Below are positions 11,030 to 19,473 of a stretch of DNA of 64,000 bases, piece by piece. The notes beneath the pieces are model-generated. The model did no database searches. It worked only from the letters and a program-made list of their open reading frames with translations, and had not been told where the DNA came from. Both the position numbers and the translations under genes were made by a program. Source of the stretch: Pseudomonas delhiensis (GTDB lineage: Bacteria; Pseudomonadota; Gammaproteobacteria; Pseudomonadales; Pseudomonadaceae); the NCBI RefSeq assembly GCF_900187975.1, contig NZ_FZPC01000020.1:1-64000 (forward strand), given 5' to 3'. Within the stretch, counting starts at the first letter, position 1. The number at the start of each line of letters is the position of its first letter.

Positions 11030-11305
11030 ATGTCCCGCATCCACGTCGAACGCCCCCATTCCCTCGGCCGCGAAGCCGCCCGCGAGAAAGCCCAGAAGCT
11101 GGCCGAGAAGCTGGCCCGCGAGCACGGCGTCAGCTACGAGTGGCAGGGCGACACGCTGACCTTCAGGCGCAGCGGCGTGGACGGACGCATCGAGGTGGGC
11201 GACGACCGCGTGGCGGTGGAGGTCAAGCTGGGCCTGCTGCTGTCGGCCATGGGCGGGATGCTCAAGGGCGAGATCGAACGCGCGCTGGACAAGGCGCTGG
11301 CCTGA
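11030..11305 (+). CDS. Polyhydroxyalkanoic acid system family protein
   Basis: A 91-residue soluble protein matching the small family found beside pseudomonad PHA genes (the PA5062-type protein). Visible blocks are a basic helical N-terminus ([20 protein letters not shown]) and a beta-strand section ([20 protein letters not shown]) ending in an amphipathic helix. The molecular role is not established. The ATG at 11030 follows CCGGAG at good spacing. The stop codon sits in the loop of a 22-bp hairpin (11281-11328). It precedes phaI-phaF on the same strand, so it may belong to the same granule-related set. Confidence 0.86.
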
Positions 11306-11328
11306 GGCCGAGCGCCTTGTCCAGCGCG
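11281..11328. other. Near-perfect 22-bp hairpin with the stop codon in its loop
   Basis: The left arm CGCGCTGGACAAGGCGCT (11281-11298) is exactly complementary to 11311-11328. The intervening bases pair further as GGCC-TGA-GGCC with one bulged G. The loop is the TGA stop of the preceding gene. No T-run follows, so it is not a standard intrinsic terminator; it could stabilise the 3' end or be a relic of an inverted duplication. Confidence 0.9.
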
Positions 11329-11333
11329 CGGGT

Positions 11334-11402: not shown

Positions 11403-11428
11403 CCGGCGCTCCGCGCCGGCTGGTATGT

Positions 11429-11451
11429 GTTTTCTAATTTTCCCCGATACC
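11429..11451 (+). promoter_or_regulatory. Box shared with the phaC1 upstream region, candidate pha operator
   Basis: GTTTTCTAAT followed by TTTCCCCGATA aligns without gaps to a segment upstream of phaC1 (minus strand, 18695-18715), with 17 of 21 bases identical and the first 10 exact. Both face their downstream pha gene in the same orientation. It is 66 bp upstream of the phaI ATG. PhaD is known in P. putida to act at the phaC1 and phaI promoters, so a PhaD site is one explanation; no dyad symmetry is obvious. Confidence 0.5.
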
Positions 11452-11516
11452 TTGCACTCAAGCTCGCAACGCTGCGGGCCTCTACGGACCCCCGAGAACA
11501 GTGTGAGGAAACCATC

Positions 11517-11939
11517 ATGGCCAAGGTCGCCAGCAAGAAGAAAGTCGAGAAAGCCGTCAGCGAGTCGTCCCTGATCACCGACGTCAAGCACTACGCCCGC
11601 CAGATCTGGCTGGCCGGCCTGGGCGCCTATGCGCGCGTCGGCGCCGAAGGCACCGGGTACTTCAAGTCGCTGGTGAAGGAAGGCGAAGGCCTGGAAACCA
11701 AGGGCCGCCAGTTGGTGACCGAGCAGGTCGAGTCGGCCAACGACAGCGTCAAGAGCAGCGTGTCGCTGGTGAAGGACAAGTTCGAGGTGCAGCTGGACAA
11801 GGTCGAGAAGGCTTTCGACAGCCGCGTGGCTTCCGCGCTGAACCGCATGGGCATTCCGTCGCGGCAGGATGTCGAGGCGCTCTCTGCTAAGCTTGACGAG
11901 CTGAGCGCGGTGCTCGAGCGTGTCGCGAAAACTCATTGA
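11517..11939 (+). CDS. phaI: PHA granule-associated phasin PhaI
   Basis: A 140-residue phasin that coats medium-chain-length PHA granules. It is helical and amphipathic, with the family core HYARQIWLAGLGAYARVG at about 22-39 and a C-terminal coiled-coil segment (LDKVEKAFDSRVASALNRMGIPS). The start at 11517 follows GTGAGGAAACC. The gene is followed after 10 bp by the paralogue phaF, with which it shares the N-terminal phasin domain; the ribosome binding site of phaF overlaps the phaI stop, indicating coupling. Confidence 0.95.
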   Translation: MAKVASKKKVEKAVSESSLITDVKHYARQIWLAGLGAYARVGAEGTGYFKSLVKEGEGLETKGRQLVTEQVESANDSVKSSVSLVKDKFEVQLDKVEKAFDSRVASALNRMGIPSRQDVEALSAKLDELSAVLERVAKTH

Positions 11940-11949
11940 GGAGAGCGGG

Positions 11950-12834
11950 ATGGCTGGCAAGAAAACTACCGATAAAAAAGAGTCCAGTTGGGTCGGCGAG
12001 ATCGAGAAATACTCGCGGCAAATCTGGTTGGCTGGTCTGGGGGCCTACTCGAAGGTCAGCAAGGACGGCAGCAAGCTGTTCGAGACACTGGTCAAGGATG
12101 GCGAAAAGGCCGAGAAGCAGGCCCGGACCGAAGTCGATAAATCCGTCGGCGCGGTGAAGTCCACCGCCCGTTCGGCGCGTTCCAAGGTCGACGAAGTGAA
12201 GGACCGCGCCCTGGGCAAGTGGGGTGAGCTGGAAGAGGCGTTCGACAAGCGCCTGAACAGCGCCATCTCGCGCCTGGGCGTGCCGAGCCGCAACGAGGTG
12301 AAGGACCTGCATGCGAAGGTCGAGACCCTGACCAGGCAGATCGAGAAACTCACCGGCGTCAGCGTCAAGTCGGTGGCCAAGCCCGCCGCCAAGGCCGCTG
12401 CGAAACCTGCGGCCAAGGCTGCAGCGAAGCCCGCAGCCAAGCCGGCCGCCAAGACCGCGGCGGCCAAGCCTGCTGCCAAGGCTGCTGCGAAACCGGCTGC
12501 GAAGCCGGCGGCCAAACCGGCTGCGGCCAAGGCAGCGGCGAAGCCTGCCGCCAAGCCTGCTGCTGCGAAGGCCGCGGCGAAACCGGCTGCGAAGCCGGCC
12601 GCCAAACCGGCTGCGGCCAAGCCTGCGGCGAAACCGGCAGCAGCGAAACCCGCTACCAAGCCTGCCGCGGTGAAGAAGCCGGCGGCGAAGAAGCCCGCCG
12701 CGCCGAAGGTGGCCAAGCCGGCAGCACCGGCCACGCCGGCCGCGGCTCCGGCCCCGGCGGCCACTCCGGCGCCGGCTGCGGCAGCTCCGGCTGCTCCGGT
12801 AGCGGCTCCGGCCACGCCGCCGACCCAGGCCTGA
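11950..12834 (+). CDS. phaF: PHA granule and nucleoid-associated phasin PhaF
   Basis: A 294-residue bipartite protein. Residues 1-140 form a phasin domain homologous to PhaI (KYSRQIWLAGLGAYSKV at 20-36). Residues from about 142 to 260 are histone-H1-like KPAAK/AAKPA repeats, which in characterised PhaF bind DNA and help segregate granules at division. The last 30 residues are an alanine/proline tail without lysine. The ribosome binding site GAGGAGAG overlaps the phaI stop. The repetitive codons (AAGCCT, AAACCG, AAGGCT) make length variation by slippage likely. An intrinsic terminator follows. Confidence 0.96.
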   Translation: MAGKKTTDKKESSWVGEIEKYSRQIWLAGLGAYSKVSKDGSKLFETLVKDGEKAEKQARTEVDKSVGAVKSTARSARSKVDEVKDRALGKWGELEEAFDKRLNSAISRLGVPSRNEVKDLHAKVETLTRQIEKLTGVSVKSVAKPAAKAAAKPAAKAAAKPAAKPAAKTAAAKPAAKAAAKPAAKPAAKPAAAKAAAKPAAKPAAAKAAAKPAAKPAAKPAAAKPAAKPAAAKPATKPAAVKKPAAKKPAAPKVAKPAAPATPAAAPAPAATPAPAAAAPAAPVAAPATPPTQA

Positions 12835-12853: not shown

Positions 12854-12885
12854 GACGCCCGGCCTCGTGCCGGGCGTCTTCGTTT
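12854..12885 (+). terminator. Intrinsic terminator after phaF
   Basis: GACGCCCGGC and GCCGGGCGTC form a perfect 10-bp stem with a CTCGT loop, followed by TTCGTTT. It lies between the convergent phaF and phaD stop codons and could serve both directions weakly. Confidence 0.85.
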
Positions 12886-13499
12886 CAGGCGTTCAGGTAG
12901 CGCTGCGCCAGGCGCTCGGCGGCGAGCCGCGAATCGCCGCGCAGGTGCGGCGCCACCAGCATCATCACCTGGTAGACCACCAGGCGTATCTCGCCTTCGC
13001 GGCCGAGGATGCGCTGGTAGTCCAGGGAGAACAGCAGGGTCAGGGTGATCTGCTCCACCAGTTGGCCGAGGGCGTCGGTGTCGCTGGTCAGCTCGCCGTC
13101 GGCCTTGAGCCGGGCGAGCAGGGCGGCCAGGGTGCGCTTGAGCGCGTTGAGCCAGCCGCGCATGCCGCGGGCCAGCTTGGGCAGGCGCCCGGCCAGGTTG
13201 GACAGGTCCTGGAAGAGGAAGCGGTAGTGCGCCAGCCGCTCGACGATCAGGTGCAGGAACAGCCAGTAGTCCTCGGCCCCCAGGCGCGCGTCGGCGGGTG
13301 GGTCGAGCAGCGGCTGCAGTTCCTCCTCGAAGCGGGCGAACAGGGCCAGCACCAGCGGCTCCTTGCCGTGGAAGTGGTAGTACAGGTTGCCGGGGCTGAT
13401 GCCCAGCTCGGTGGCGATCTCCAGGGTGGAGACGTTGGGTTCGCCCTGTTCGTTGAACAACAGCAGGGCGCATTCGAGGATGCGGTCGCGGGTTTTCAT
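12885..13499 (-). CDS. phaD: TetR-family transcriptional regulator PhaD
   Basis: A 204-residue TetR-type regulator of the PHA cluster; in P. putida PhaD activates the phaC1 and phaI promoters in response to a fatty-acid metabolite. The N-terminal helix-turn-helix is seen in VSTLEIATELGISPGNLYYHF (about 23-43); the rest is the all-alpha ligand domain. The start at 13499 gives MKTRDRILECALLLF, the canonical TetR first helix. It is the last gene of the phaC1-phaZ-phaC2-phaD set but is separated from phaC2 by 421 bp containing a long palindromic repeat, which may weaken read-through. Confidence 0.94.
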   Translation of the reverse strand: MKTRDRILECALLLFNEQGEPNVSTLEIATELGISPGNLYYHFHGKEPLVLALFARFEEELQPLLDPPADARLGAEDYWLFLHLIVERLAHYRFLFQDLSNLAGRLPKLARGMRGWLNALKRTLAALLARLKADGELTSDTDALGQLVEQITLTLLFSLDYQRILGREGEIRLVVYQVMMLVAPHLRGDSRLAAERLAQRYLNA

Positions 13500-15781: not shown

Positions 15782-16792
15782 TCAGCCGGCCTTGGGGGCG
15801 AACGGCCGCGGGTGCATGACCGCGCGCTGCCGTTCCTCGGCGAGGAACTTCATGATGATCGGCGCCACCGTCTCGGCGCGGGTCACCAGGAACAGGTGGC
15901 CGTCGTCGATCACGTGCAGCTCCGCGTTGGGAATGCGCCAGGCCAGCAGGCGCATGTTCACCAGCGGGATGATCGGGTCGTCGTCGCCGGCCAGCACCAG
16001 GGTCGGCTGGCGGATGTGGTGCAGCCAGTGGATGCTGGTCCAGCCCAGGCCGGCGAACAGCTGCCAGTAGTAGCCCAGCTTGCCCGAGGAACGCACCTTG
16101 GCGGCGAAGGCCATGGCCAGCTTCGGGTCGCGGCGGAAGGCGCCGCCGTAGATGTCCGGGGCGATGTGCGCACCGTAGGACGGCTGGATGTAGCGCCGCG
16201 GGCTGGCCATGCGCCAGAGCACCTTGGGCTTGCCCGGGACCATCACCGCCCCGGCGGCGGTGGCCGCCAGGATCAGCTTCTTGCAGCGCTCGGGGTAGTC
16301 GTGGGCGAACTGCTGGGCCAGGGCGCCGCCCCAGGACACGCCGATGGCGGTGACCTGGCCGTAGTCCAGGTAGTCGAGCATGCGCGCCGCCAGCTTGGCC
16401 AGGCCGGGGAAGCGGTAGGGCGTGCTCGGCGTGGACGAGCCGCCGACACCGGGCACGTCGAAGGCGATCACCTCCAGGTCCGGGTCCAGCGCGGCGACGA
16501 AGGGGAACACCAGCTCCAGGTTGGCGCCGATGCCGTTGAAGATCAGCAGCGGCGTCATGTGCCCCTTGCCCGGCCGCACGGCGGTGCGGATGGTCTGCCC
16601 GTCCAGGTCGATGGTGCGGAACACGAAGGGCTGCGGCGCGAGCACGCGCGCGCGGGCCTCGGCCGGCTGCTGCGCTTCGGCTTCCGGGGCTGCGGCGCGT
16701 GCCTTGCGCGGGCGCGTGGCCGGCGGCGCCGGCTCGGGTTGCGCTGGCACCTGCCGTTCCGGCGTGGCTTCGGGTAGGTTTTCTGTCTTCAT
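15782..16792 (-). CDS. phaZ: Intracellular mcl-PHA depolymerase PhaZ with N-terminal extension
   Basis: An alpha/beta hydrolase that mobilises stored PHA. The conserved body begins at about residue 54 (QPFVFRTIDLDGQTIRTAVRPGK); the lipase box GVSWGG at 151-156 gives Ser153, with Asp in AGDDDP (270-272) and His299 (DDGHLF) as likely partners. From the ATG at 16792 the protein is 336 residues, about 50 longer than the usual 283-285. The extension is rich in Ala, Pro and Glu with an RPRKAR patch. The ATG overlaps the phaC1 TGA as ATGA, supporting use of this start. A GTG at codon 50 would give the standard length but has a poor ribosome binding site. Confidence 0.93.
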   Translation of the reverse strand: MKTENLPEATPERQVPAQPEPAPPATRPRKARAAAPEAEAQQPAEARARVLAPQPFVFRTIDLDGQTIRTAVRPGKGHMTPLLIFNGIGANLELVFPFVAALDPDLEVIAFDVPGVGGSSTPSTPYRFPGLAKLAARMLDYLDYGQVTAIGVSWGGALAQQFAHDYPERCKKLILAATAAGAVMVPGKPKVLWRMASPRRYIQPSYGAHIAPDIYGGAFRRDPKLAMAFAAKVRSSGKLGYYWQLFAGLGWTSIHWLHHIRQPTLVLAGDDDPIIPLVNMRLLAWRIPNAELHVIDDGHLFLVTRAETVAPIIMKFLAEERQRAVMHPRPFAPKAG

Positions 16793-18468
16793 CGTTCGTG
16801 TACGTAGGTGCCGGGGGATGCTTCGCCAGCCGGGTGGGCCTTGTTGCCCAGGGCGGTCGGCGCCTTTTTCAGCTTGCCCGCGCGCTCGGCCAGCCACTGT
16901 TGCCAGTGCAGCCACCAGGAGTCGGCGTGCTTGCTGGAGTTCTCCTGCCAGGTCTTGGGATCGACGGAGAGGTCCGGGCCGGTCATGAAGCGTGCCTTGG
17001 GGTTGCCCGGCGGGTTGAGGATGCTCTGGATGTGCCCGCTGTTGGAGAGGATGAACTCGCACTTGCCGCCGAGCAGGCGCGCCGAGCGGTAGCAGGCTTC
17101 CCAGGGGGTGATGTGGTCGTTGAGCCCGGCCAGGCAGTAGAAGTCGCAGGTGACCTGCTTGAGGTCGATGGGCGTGCCGCCCACCTCCAGCGCGCCGGGG
17201 CGGGCCAGCGGGTTGGTCTTGAACATCTCCACCAGTTCGCCGTGCAGCGCGGCCGGCAGGCGCGTGGTGTCGTTGTTCCAGAACAGGATGTCGAAGGCCG
17301 GCGGCTCGTTGCCCAGCAGGTAGTTGTTGACCCAGTAGTTCCAGATCAGGTCGTTGGGGCGCATCCAGGCGAACACCTTGGCCATGTCCTTGCCTTCCAG
17401 CACGCCGGACTGGTAGGAGCGGCGCTTGGCGGCCTCGAGGGTCTTCTCGTCGGCGAACAGGGCGACGGTGGTGTCCAGCTCGAAGTCGAGCACGCTGACC
17501 ATCTGGGTGAAGGCGTGCACCTTCTCCTCGCCCAGGGCCGCGTAGTGGCCGAGCAGGGTGACGGTGGTGATGCCGCCGGAGCAGGCGCCGAGCATGTTCA
17601 GGTCCTTGCTGCCGGTGATGGCCAGGACCACGTCGATGGCTTCCTTGAGCGCCTCGATGTAGGTGGTCAGGCCCCATTCGCGCTGGGCCTTGGTGGGGTT
17701 GCGCCAGCTGACGATGAAGGTCTGCACCTGGTTGCGCAGGCAGAAGCGCGCCAGGCTCTTCTCCGGCGACAGGTCGAAGACGTAGAACTTGTTGATCTGC
17801 GGCGGCACCACCAGCAGCGGGCGCTCGTGCACGCTCTCGGTGATCGGGCGGTACTGGATCAGCTCCAGCACGTCGTTGCGGAACACCACCGCGCCTTCGG
17901 TGGTGGCCAGGTTCTTGCCGACCTCGAAGGCGTCCATGTTGACCTGGCTGGGCATGCCGCCGTTGTTCACCAGGTCCTTGGCCAGGTGGCTGAGGCCGTC
18001 GAGCAGGCTCTTGCCGCCGGTCTCGAAGAAGCGCTTGACCGCGGCCGGGTTGCTCAGGGTGTTGGTCGGCGCCATGGCTTCGGTCATGAGGTTGATGACG
18101 AACTGGCCGCGGTTGATGTCCTGGGGCGACAGGTCGCTGTTGCCGATCCACTGGTGCAGCTCCTTGCGCCAGGCCAGGTAGGTCTGCAGGTAGCGGCGGT
18201 ACAGCGGGTTCTGGCTCCAGGCTGGGTCGTTGAAGCGGCGGTCGTCGTCGGCCGGGCGCAGGTCCGAGGTACCGAGCAGGACATTCTTCAGCTCCAGGCC
18301 GAAATGGCCGACGTGCTTGACGCTGTGGAAGGGCTGCCTGAGGGCCTGCAGCAGCACCATGCGGGCAGTGGACAACAAATCCTTGCCGCGAATGCCTATC
18401 ACCGGGTTGAGGTTCAGGGTGTTTTCCGCGGCTTGCTGGGACAGATCGTTGTTCTTCTTTTCGGTCAT
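16789..18468 (-). CDS. phaC1: Class II poly(3-hydroxyalkanoate) polymerase PhaC1
   Basis: A 559-residue mcl-PHA synthase, first gene of the phaC1-phaZ-phaC2-phaD set. The GACSGG box is at 294-299 with nucleophile Cys296; Asp451 (NDHITPWE) and His479 (NSGHIQS) are the other triad members. The C-terminus is GTYVHER, as in PhaC2. The ATG at 18468 follows GGAGCG at 6 bp spacing and matches the family N-terminus (MTEKKNN). About 400 bp of non-coding DNA upstream carries several dyads and a box shared with the phaI promoter region. Confidence 0.97.
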   Translation of the reverse strand: MTEKKNNDLSQQAAENTLNLNPVIGIRGKDLLSTARMVLLQALRQPFHSVKHVGHFGLELKNVLLGTSDLRPADDDRRFNDPAWSQNPLYRRYLQTYLAWRKELHQWIGNSDLSPQDINRGQFVINLMTEAMAPTNTLSNPAAVKRFFETGGKSLLDGLSHLAKDLVNNGGMPSQVNMDAFEVGKNLATTEGAVVFRNDVLELIQYRPITESVHERPLLVVPPQINKFYVFDLSPEKSLARFCLRNQVQTFIVSWRNPTKAQREWGLTTYIEALKEAIDVVLAITGSKDLNMLGACSGGITTVTLLGHYAALGEEKVHAFTQMVSVLDFELDTTVALFADEKTLEAAKRRSYQSGVLEGKDMAKVFAWMRPNDLIWNYWVNNYLLGNEPPAFDILFWNNDTTRLPAALHGELVEMFKTNPLARPGALEVGGTPIDLKQVTCDFYCLAGLNDHITPWEACYRSARLLGGKCEFILSNSGHIQSILNPPGNPKARFMTGPDLSVDPKTWQENSSKHADSWWLHWQQWLAERAGKLKKAPTALGNKAHPAGEASPGTYVHER

Positions 18469-18550
18469 CGGCGACGCTCCATTGTCCTGAGACGAATACT
18501 GGCGGGGCTGCACCTAGGTGACGGGCCAAGTACTGCTCGGGTTAGCGGAA

Positions 18551-18576
18551 CGTGGAGCGGGCTCCACGCATGTCAA
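18551..18576 (-). promoter_or_regulatory. Dyad next to a TTGACA hexamer in the phaC1 upstream region
   Basis: On the minus strand TTGACA (18576-18571) is followed after 2 bp by a perfect 8-bp inverted repeat, CGTGGAGC-CC-GCTCCACG (18568-18551). The hexamer is a perfect -35 but no good -10 is at standard distance. The dyad occupies the place of a spacer, as an operator would. It is 83-108 bp upstream of the phaC1 start. Confidence 0.45.
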
Positions 18577-18612
18577 CACTTGGCGGCATCGCTGGGGTCC
18601 TGGGCCCGCGTC

Positions 18613-18627
18613 TGCAACGGCGTTGCA
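18613..18627. promoter_or_regulatory. Perfect 7-bp palindrome upstream of phaC1
   Basis: TGCAACG-G-CGTTGCA is a perfect inverted repeat with a single central base. On the minus strand GTGCAACGCCGTTGC also has the GC/GC spacing of a degenerate -24/-12 (sigma-54) element, but lacks the TGG of the -24 box. Operator or chance palindrome cannot be told apart from sequence. Confidence 0.4.
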
Positions 18628-18690
18628 CTGACTTGGTTACCCGAGATTCCCCCGCCGCGCAAGCTGGTGCAGCGTGGTTCCCTGCGCCGG

Positions 18691-18715
18691 AGTATGTCGC
18701 GAAAGATTAGAAAAC
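18691..18715 (-). promoter_or_regulatory. Box shared with the phaI upstream region, candidate pha operator
   Basis: The minus strand reads GTTTTCTAAT then CTTTCGCGACA; 17 of 21 bases match the segment at 11429-11449 upstream of phaI, in the same orientation relative to the downstream pha gene. It is about 225-247 bp upstream of the phaC1 ATG. The remaining DNA to 18864 holds no gene I can support. Confidence 0.5.
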
Positions 18716-18864
18716 GCGCCCTAGAGCGCTCGCTCGTCCGCAGCCCGGACACAGGAAACACGCGGTTTCCAGTGTGCAGGGCGAATGTTGCAAATGACGT
18801 GCCCTGATCGGGGGCAGGAGGATGCTGGCGCGGCGGCGGCCGGTAAACCGGCGCAAAGGTGGGT

Positions 18865-19246: not shown

Positions 19247-19320
19247 GGCTACAGGCTACAGGCTACAGGCTACAGGCTACAGGCTACAGGCTACAGGCTA
19301 CAGGCTACAGGCTACAGGCT
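19247..19320. repeat. Tandem heptanucleotide array (GGCTACA), about 10.5 copies
   Basis: A perfect 7-bp microsatellite spans 74 bp and starts 10 bp upstream of the DUF971 start codon, so it occupies the leader or promoter of that gene. No interruption is seen. Perfect tandem arrays of this kind change length by slippage. The unit is a variant of the heptamer family seen at 11334 and 24181. Confidence 0.97.
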
Positions 19321-19341
19321 AAGAGCGTGGCGAGGCTCTTC

Positions 19342-19413
19342 GTAGGAGCGAGCTTGCTCGCGAACCGGGTTGGCACGGTGCCAGGTCTGGTTCGCGAGCA
19401 AGCTCGCTCCTAC
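19342..19413. repeat. REP pair of the GTAGGAGCGAGCTTGCTCGCGAA type
   Basis: Two inverted copies of the common Pseudomonas REP sequence (19342-19366 and 19389-19413) flank a short centre, forming a REPIN-like hairpin in the gap between the DUF971 gene and hslU. Confidence 0.92.
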
Positions 19414-19473
19414 AGGGGGATCAGCCCGTCGCTATTGCCAGCAGCGACGGTGAGGCCACCGGCTCGTCGCTCT

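Follow-up and report, generated by a model that had tools for sequence, protein, structure and literature searches.

Two operons of the pha locus of Pseudomonas delhiensis, headed by phaI and phaC1, carry closely similar AT-rich boxes upstream, which raises the question of what this shared word does. The locus lies in the window, that is, the whole 64,000-nucleotide stretch that was analyzed. Profile matches place phaI, which encodes a phasin (PF05597), at 11517..11939 on the plus strand, followed by phaF (11950..12834, plus strand), which encodes a phasin domain (PF05597) with an alanine-, lysine-, and proline-rich tail. The phaD gene (12885..13499, minus strand) encodes a TetR-family regulator with PF00440 (TetR_N) and PF13972 domains, and phaC1 (PhaC_N, PF07167) lies at 16789..18468 on the minus strand. 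This genome therefore encodes a PhaD ortholog with a TetR helix-turn-helix, and the candidate operator described below is located in the promoter regions of both phaC1 and phaI.

According to two reviews and one research paper, PhaD of P. putida binds both the phaC1 and phaI promoter regions, and the expression of both operons is PhaD-dependent. PhaD reportedly activates transcription in response to fatty-acid carbon. One paper describes a lowered PHA content upon raised phaD expression, which counts against the explanation proposed here. The present analysis indicates, with a probability of roughly 87%, that the shared word is the right arm of a predicted PhaD operator that would stand in for the -35 element at both promoters. 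PhaD operators at the phaI and phaC1 promoters have already been reported for P. putida, and the finding is not new in kind. A description of the operator sequence was not found in the titles and abstract openings of the PhaD literature that was searched.

The shared box and its conservation

The phaI copy of the box, GTTTTCTAATTTTCCCCGATA, is located at 11429-11449 on the plus strand, 67 nt ahead of the phaI ATG (11517). The phaC1 copy, GTTTTCTAATCTTTCGCGACA, is located at 18715-18695 on the minus strand, 226 nt ahead of the phaC1 ATG (18468). Re-reading of both sites confirmed that 17 of 21 positions are identical and that the first ten match exactly, as the original prediction had claimed. 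When the 17 shared positions were searched with up to three mismatches, just the two pha sites were found in the 6.73-Mb assembly, and a reversed control of the same pattern gave no matches there. Within the window, the shared 10-mer has two matches at one mismatch or fewer against 0.24 expected, and 3 of 100 shuffles also gave two. When the two intergenic regions were Markov-shuffled, 21 of 1000 shuffles reached 17/21; an exact common 10-mer arose in 276 of 2000 shuffles, and one with at least eight A/T letters in 5 of 5000. The pairwise score is modest by itself, and the case is carried by conservation. A looser pattern, again with up to three mismatches, matched 111 sites in this genome versus 112 for its reversed control, so no expansion of the regulon beyond the two pha sites is indicated here. 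No other site stands out, and the word is not scattered over many unrelated promoters of the genome, the outcome that had been named as speaking against a regulatory role.

Conservation was followed in 160 pha loci collected by PhaD, comprising 79 found by place (genus and family genomes), 80 named loci, and the window itself. Judged by PhaD identity, the closest named genomes belong to P. citronellolis strains (99 and 95%), in a comparison that may have passed over records of the genome to which the window belongs. Nine loci with no usable phaI start (L077, L088, L092, L150, L164, L168, L174, L181, and L184) were left out, as was L109, which has no phaC1, from the phaC1 counts. In distant loci, phaC1 denotes the best tblastn match to the PhaC1 of the window. 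All 151 usable loci (151 of 151) have TTCTAA ahead of phaI, with no second copy in the searched range, and 136 of 159 have it ahead of phaC1; these counts are not all independent, because the named and by-place sets overlap in some records, and 120 (phaI) and 104 (phaC1) unique 60-mers are left. The word is thus conserved upstream of both genes in related Pseudomonas genomes, which was the check proposed along with the original prediction.

TTCTAA is missing from the searched range in 23 of the 159 phaC1 upstream regions. These are L040, L057 and L158 (P. aeruginosa PA7), L062, L063, L067, L086, L091, L101, L103, L124, L176, L104-L108, and L110-L115, the last two groups being presumably Stutzerimonas, judging from kinship. 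Some of these loci, such as L062 and L067, carry TTTTCTAG at that place. The two PA7 loci keep the right arm of the operator at phaI and have none at phaC1, and the single operator-pattern match on the PA7 chromosome is at phaI, so an apparent loss of the right arm has occurred upstream of phaC1 in this strain. Both operator-pattern matches of P. putida 31800 are inside the pha locus.

Putative operator palindrome and predicted promoter layout

The shared word makes up the right arm of TTAG-N10-CTAA, an imperfect palindrome with the form of a putative TetR-type operator. The ideal 20-bp operator consists of the halves ATTAGAAAGC and GCTTTCTAAT around this core. The predicted PhaD-type operator of phaIF lies at 11419..11438 on the plus strand (left half GCTGGTATGT, right half GTTTTCTAAT) and has a degenerate left arm, with CTGG for TTAG. 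That of phaC1 lies at 18706..18725 on the minus strand (left half TCTAGGGCGC, right half GTTTTCTAAT). The palindrome is weak in this genome, where 3 of 10 pairs are formed at phaI and 4 of 10 at phaC1, and the right half-site is intact. Columns were numbered from the C of CTAA over the collected loci, and the phaI and phaC1 sets both fit a palindrome best when it is centred on column -5.5. The mean number of pairs at this centre is 4.6 of 10 for phaI and 5.1 of 10 for phaC1, compared with about 2.3-2.5 as an average of all centres or in shuffles.

The left arm was also recovered among sites chosen without it, and dropping it as a criterion left every site count unchanged. All 136 of 136 phaC1 sites have at least three of the four TTAG letters, and the phaI sites have four (39 sites), three (81), or two (31). 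Columns common to both promoters are T-13, A-12, G-11, G-7, and mostly T4, with G instead of A at column -12 in 16% of phaI sites; TT at columns -2 and -1 and CTAA were required when the sites were picked, and the six-column invariance at phaC1 is built in because TTCTAA was required. The clearest palindromes are ATTAGGAAGC followed by GCTTTCTAAT (L139, L149, P. cichorii) and TCTAGAAAGC followed by GCTTTCTAAT (L060).

Conservation of individual columns also predicts a -10 element for each operon, TACCTT at 11448..11453 on the plus strand for phaIF and CATACT at 18691..18696 on the minus strand for phaC1. The -10-like hexamer starts 14 columns past the C of CTAA at phaI, at phaC1, and at fadB of other genomes. 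In all three sets, a TATAAT-like hexamer scores best at column 14 among columns 4-29, the range of the scan, which left columns below 4 outside. At phaI, the hexamer (columns 14-19) is mostly TACCTT or TACTTT, and T14, A15, and T19 are invariant in 120 unique sites. At phaC1, it is CATACT, TTGAAT, or TTCAAT in 100 of 104 sites, and at fadB it is TATGAA in 13 of 13. The box of the original prediction is therefore to be divided. Its right arm stands, but the functional unit extends some 10 bases beyond the 5' end of the box, to 11419 and 18725. The 3' half of the box consists of spacer and the opening letters of the predicted -10, which are conserved separately at each promoter.

A 17-bp spacer would put the -35 slot at the centre of the palindrome, where the letters are unlike TTGACA. 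For the -10 at column 14, the mean match to TTGACA in this slot is 2.44 of 6 for phaI, 1.07 for phaC1, and 2.54 for fadB. An ordinary sigma-70 promoter, whose TATAAT-like -10 would have a TTGACA-like -35 placed 16-18 nt away, was accordingly not found at these positions, and a simple promoter scan returned no promoter-like site in either the phaI or the phaC1 region.

The word could be a core promoter alone, with TCTAAT serving an ordinary sigma-70 promoter as its -10 and with PhaD binding elsewhere. TCTAAT, at column -1, matches TATAAT at five of six letters, with means of 5.0 for phaI and 4.8 for phaC1 versus 3.0 and 4.0 at column 14, and the scan that favoured column 14 excluded columns below 4 and hence TCTAAT. 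However, position 2 of a -10 is the critical A and would be C in every site, no conserved -35 is present at spacers of 16-18 bp (means of 1.0-1.8 of 6), and the simple scan found no promoter in either region. Such a promoter would also leave the TTAG arm, the palindrome, and the phaI invariant T, A, and T (columns 14, 15, and 19) unexplained. This explanation is improbable and was rejected because of the C at the second base, the lack of a conserved -35, and the other conserved columns. The original prediction had offered a PhaD operator or a common core promoter element; the palindrome and the -10-like hexamer at fixed spacing favour both at once, in the form of a predicted PhaD operator that takes the place of the -35 element.

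The same prediction had implied a distant phaC1 promoter, and the strong conservation of the leader, about 220 nt long, supports this. The position of the operator would explain why the phaC1 promoter lies more than 200 nt from the gene. The predicted 5' leader extends over 18469..18684 on the minus strand. Six patterns were tried for CTCGGGTAACC and its near variants, and 139 of 159 phaC1 upstream regions, including P. aeruginosa PA7, contain one of them. Of 61 non-redundant sequences, 39 were chosen for a joint alignment, and in these the stretch adjoining the phaC1 start codon is almost invariant. Two complementary segments, CTCGGGT (18645-18639) and ACCCGAG (18542-18536), may form a long-range stem, although this structure is tentative. 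RNAalifold predicted the CUCGGGU-ACCCGAG pairing in three of four groups and not in that of the window, and the minimum-energy fold of the window's own leader has no such stem (z -1.83; 10 of 200 shuffles at least as stable). A swap test favoured the own pairing in 32 of 38 cases, with a bias from short leaders in which the segments overlap. Covariation says little because the stem is nearly invariant in the 39 sequences, with a double change in 2 of 16 pairs. Seven weak Rfam matches all fall outside the leader and below their gathering scores.

Some other features were noted in and around the pha loci. A long inverted repeat, seen by eye, spans the stop codon of the small gene that lies ahead of phaI (window 11281-11331), where two microRNA-family matches fall below their gathering scores. 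Upstream of the gene preceding phaC1, at about 19247-19325 and 19336-19418 of the window, there are tandem TGTAGCC repeats (by eye) and a long hairpin, with a microRNA-family match that is also below its gathering score. In L104 and L105, whose genomes have three PF05597 matches each, the pha locus includes a third phasin-like gene. It carries a separate box copy, TTAGTATGTTTTTTCTAAA, in which T14, A15, and T19 are retained, and this counts in favour of the operator reading. Away from pha, L224 and L225 have TTAGAATGNGCTTTCTAAA in common between two genes that, by reading their letters, resemble a universal stress protein and a thioesterase.

Probable assignment to PhaD

The distribution of the box was compared with that of PhaD in 148 family genomes, of which 73 are PhaD-positive (PhaD match at E at most 1e-30) and 75 are without PhaD. 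The box is within 10 kb of phaD in 72 of the 73 PhaD-positive genomes, and in the remaining one (G052) it is beside the phasin on another contig. Further box matches occur elsewhere, 16 in PhaD-positive genomes and 27 in 19 of the 75 PhaD-less ones. Among phasin-positive (above the family cut-off) but PhaD-negative genomes, the box is present in 0 of 6 within 9-10 kb around the phasin; phaC1 is likewise absent from those stretches, so the box tracks the pha locus no less than it tracks PhaD.

A second line of evidence comes from the clearest PhaD paralog, which is 37% identical (E 1e-27) and has the same ISPGNLYYHF stretch; the next TetR protein has an E value of 3e-9. In L231, the paralog occupies 1216-1905, with a near-perfect palindrome, YTAGAG-N6-CTCTAR, upstream of the gene at 2035-2052. 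This palindrome is found just upstream of the paralog's own gene in 25 of 25 genus genomes (L290-L314) and adjoins TTGACA in most of them. The exact TTAG-N10-CTAA is present at the paralog in 4 of the 25 genomes and in all 25 once C/T and A/G are allowed at the outer letters. YTAG-N10-CTAR was found in none of the 18 other TetR loci fetched, out of 24 further matches. The bare TTAG-N10-CTAA is not unique, because the paralog locus of this genome holds a second one elsewhere. Together, these sequences suggest that PhaD-type helices read TTAG/CTAA at this spacing. The gene divergent from the paralog resembles an aldehyde dehydrogenase, by reading its letters.

The existence of this paralog raises the possibility that the palindrome serves as operator for a different regulator, which would govern both pha promoters as well, since this genome encodes elsewhere a TetR protein that shares the ISPGNLYYHF stretch and the half-sites. 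However, the paralog is on another contig here, and its operator differs in the inner letters (TTAGAG-N6-CTCTAA). The box is moreover near phaD in nearly every PhaD-positive genome and absent from the six phasin-positive, PhaD-less ones, and control by another regulator is decidedly improbable. A chance AT-rich match of two intergenic regions can practically be dismissed, as the 21 shuffles in 1000 that reach 17/21 stand against TTCTAA with a left arm in 151 of 151 phaI and 136 of 159 phaC1 upstream regions, a box unique in its genome, and family-wide conservation.

PhaD therefore remains the favoured regulator, and a mechanism can be proposed from what was directly observed, namely the sequences, their conservation, the palindrome, the fixed spacing, the co-occurrence with phaD loci, and the paralog's operator. 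A PhaD dimer, encoded in the same cluster, would bind the imperfect 20-bp palindrome. The operator would cover the -35 slot, centred at about -31.5 from the predicted start, with no TTGACA and with the -10-like hexamer following. PhaD would then do the work of a -35 element, recruiting sigma-70 RNA polymerase or holding it in position, and phaIF and phaC1ZC2D would be switched on together. TetR proteins sitting over a promoter usually repress, which counts against PhaD acting as an activator from this position. In this way, a pairwise match has become a defined candidate operator with an architecture that is open to point mutation.

A possible fadB target and comparison with known systems

A third target is indicated in another large genus of the family, coded g14, where TTAGGGCGA-N-Y-TTTCTAA is followed by TATGAAT at the same spacing. 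The box lies 315-318 nt from the fadB ATG in 13 of 39 fadB upstream regions (L251-L263), a hand-picked set in which 12 genomes were included because of earlier matches. In an unpicked draw of 298 g14 genomes, a 35-base pattern with up to two mismatches was found in 102, and the reversed control of this pattern gave 0 among the matches listed for the same draw. The fadB gene is downstream in 9 of 9 further checked loci (L315-L320, L323, L328, and L329), including P. fluorescens FW300-N2E3, PS691, and PS723, and at all 21 places checked (13 plus 9, one place counted twice). FW300-N2E3 has one operator-pattern match more besides those placed. Of twelve TTAGGGCGA-type boxes in g14 genomes, nine are ahead of fadB and three (G231, G216, and G245) are not. 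The window genome's own fadB upstream region has no box (a 10/17 match, which is background).

These findings suggest PhaD control of beta-oxidation in g14 genomes, which would be new; fadBA was not found as a reported PhaD target in the titles, abstract openings, and passages of the PhaD literature searched. There is about an even chance that PhaD is not restricted to pha and directly activates fadBA in about one third of g14 (P. fluorescens-type) genomes through the same promoter design, so that a single switch would govern both storage and beta-oxidation. PhaD would then be a TetR-family activator that replaces the -35 element, which is unusual for the family. A lineage-specific change of the PhaD regulon is predicted, with an apparent loss at phaC1 in P. 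aeruginosa PA7 and a gain at fadBA in P. fluorescens-type genomes. This bears on the coupling of bioplastic storage to fatty-acid breakdown.

The closest known system is that of P. putida KT2442, which has PhaD operators at the same two promoters, PC1 and PI, and the regulator gene in the same cluster as here. In 2010, de Eugenio and colleagues reportedly described these operators as two inverted 6-bp half-sites, 8 bp apart. This 6-8-6 layout fits ATTAGA-N8-TCTAAT. KT2442 belongs to another species, the left arm at phaI is degenerate here, and the two systems are likened by description rather than by letters. TetR self-operators, such as that of the PhaD paralog, have TTAG/CTAA half-sites with N10 between them, as here. 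In contrast to the pha operators, which have no TTGACA, the paralog's palindrome stands beside one in most of the 25 genomes, a layout typical of repression. Activator promoters that have no -35 and a site centred near -30 are those of the PhoB pho box and the phage T4 MotA box. Like the predicted pha promoters, they have the activator site in the -35 slot and the -10 at a fixed spacing. PhaD belongs to the TetR family and is related to neither PhoB nor MotA, and the mechanism given for it here is a proposed one.
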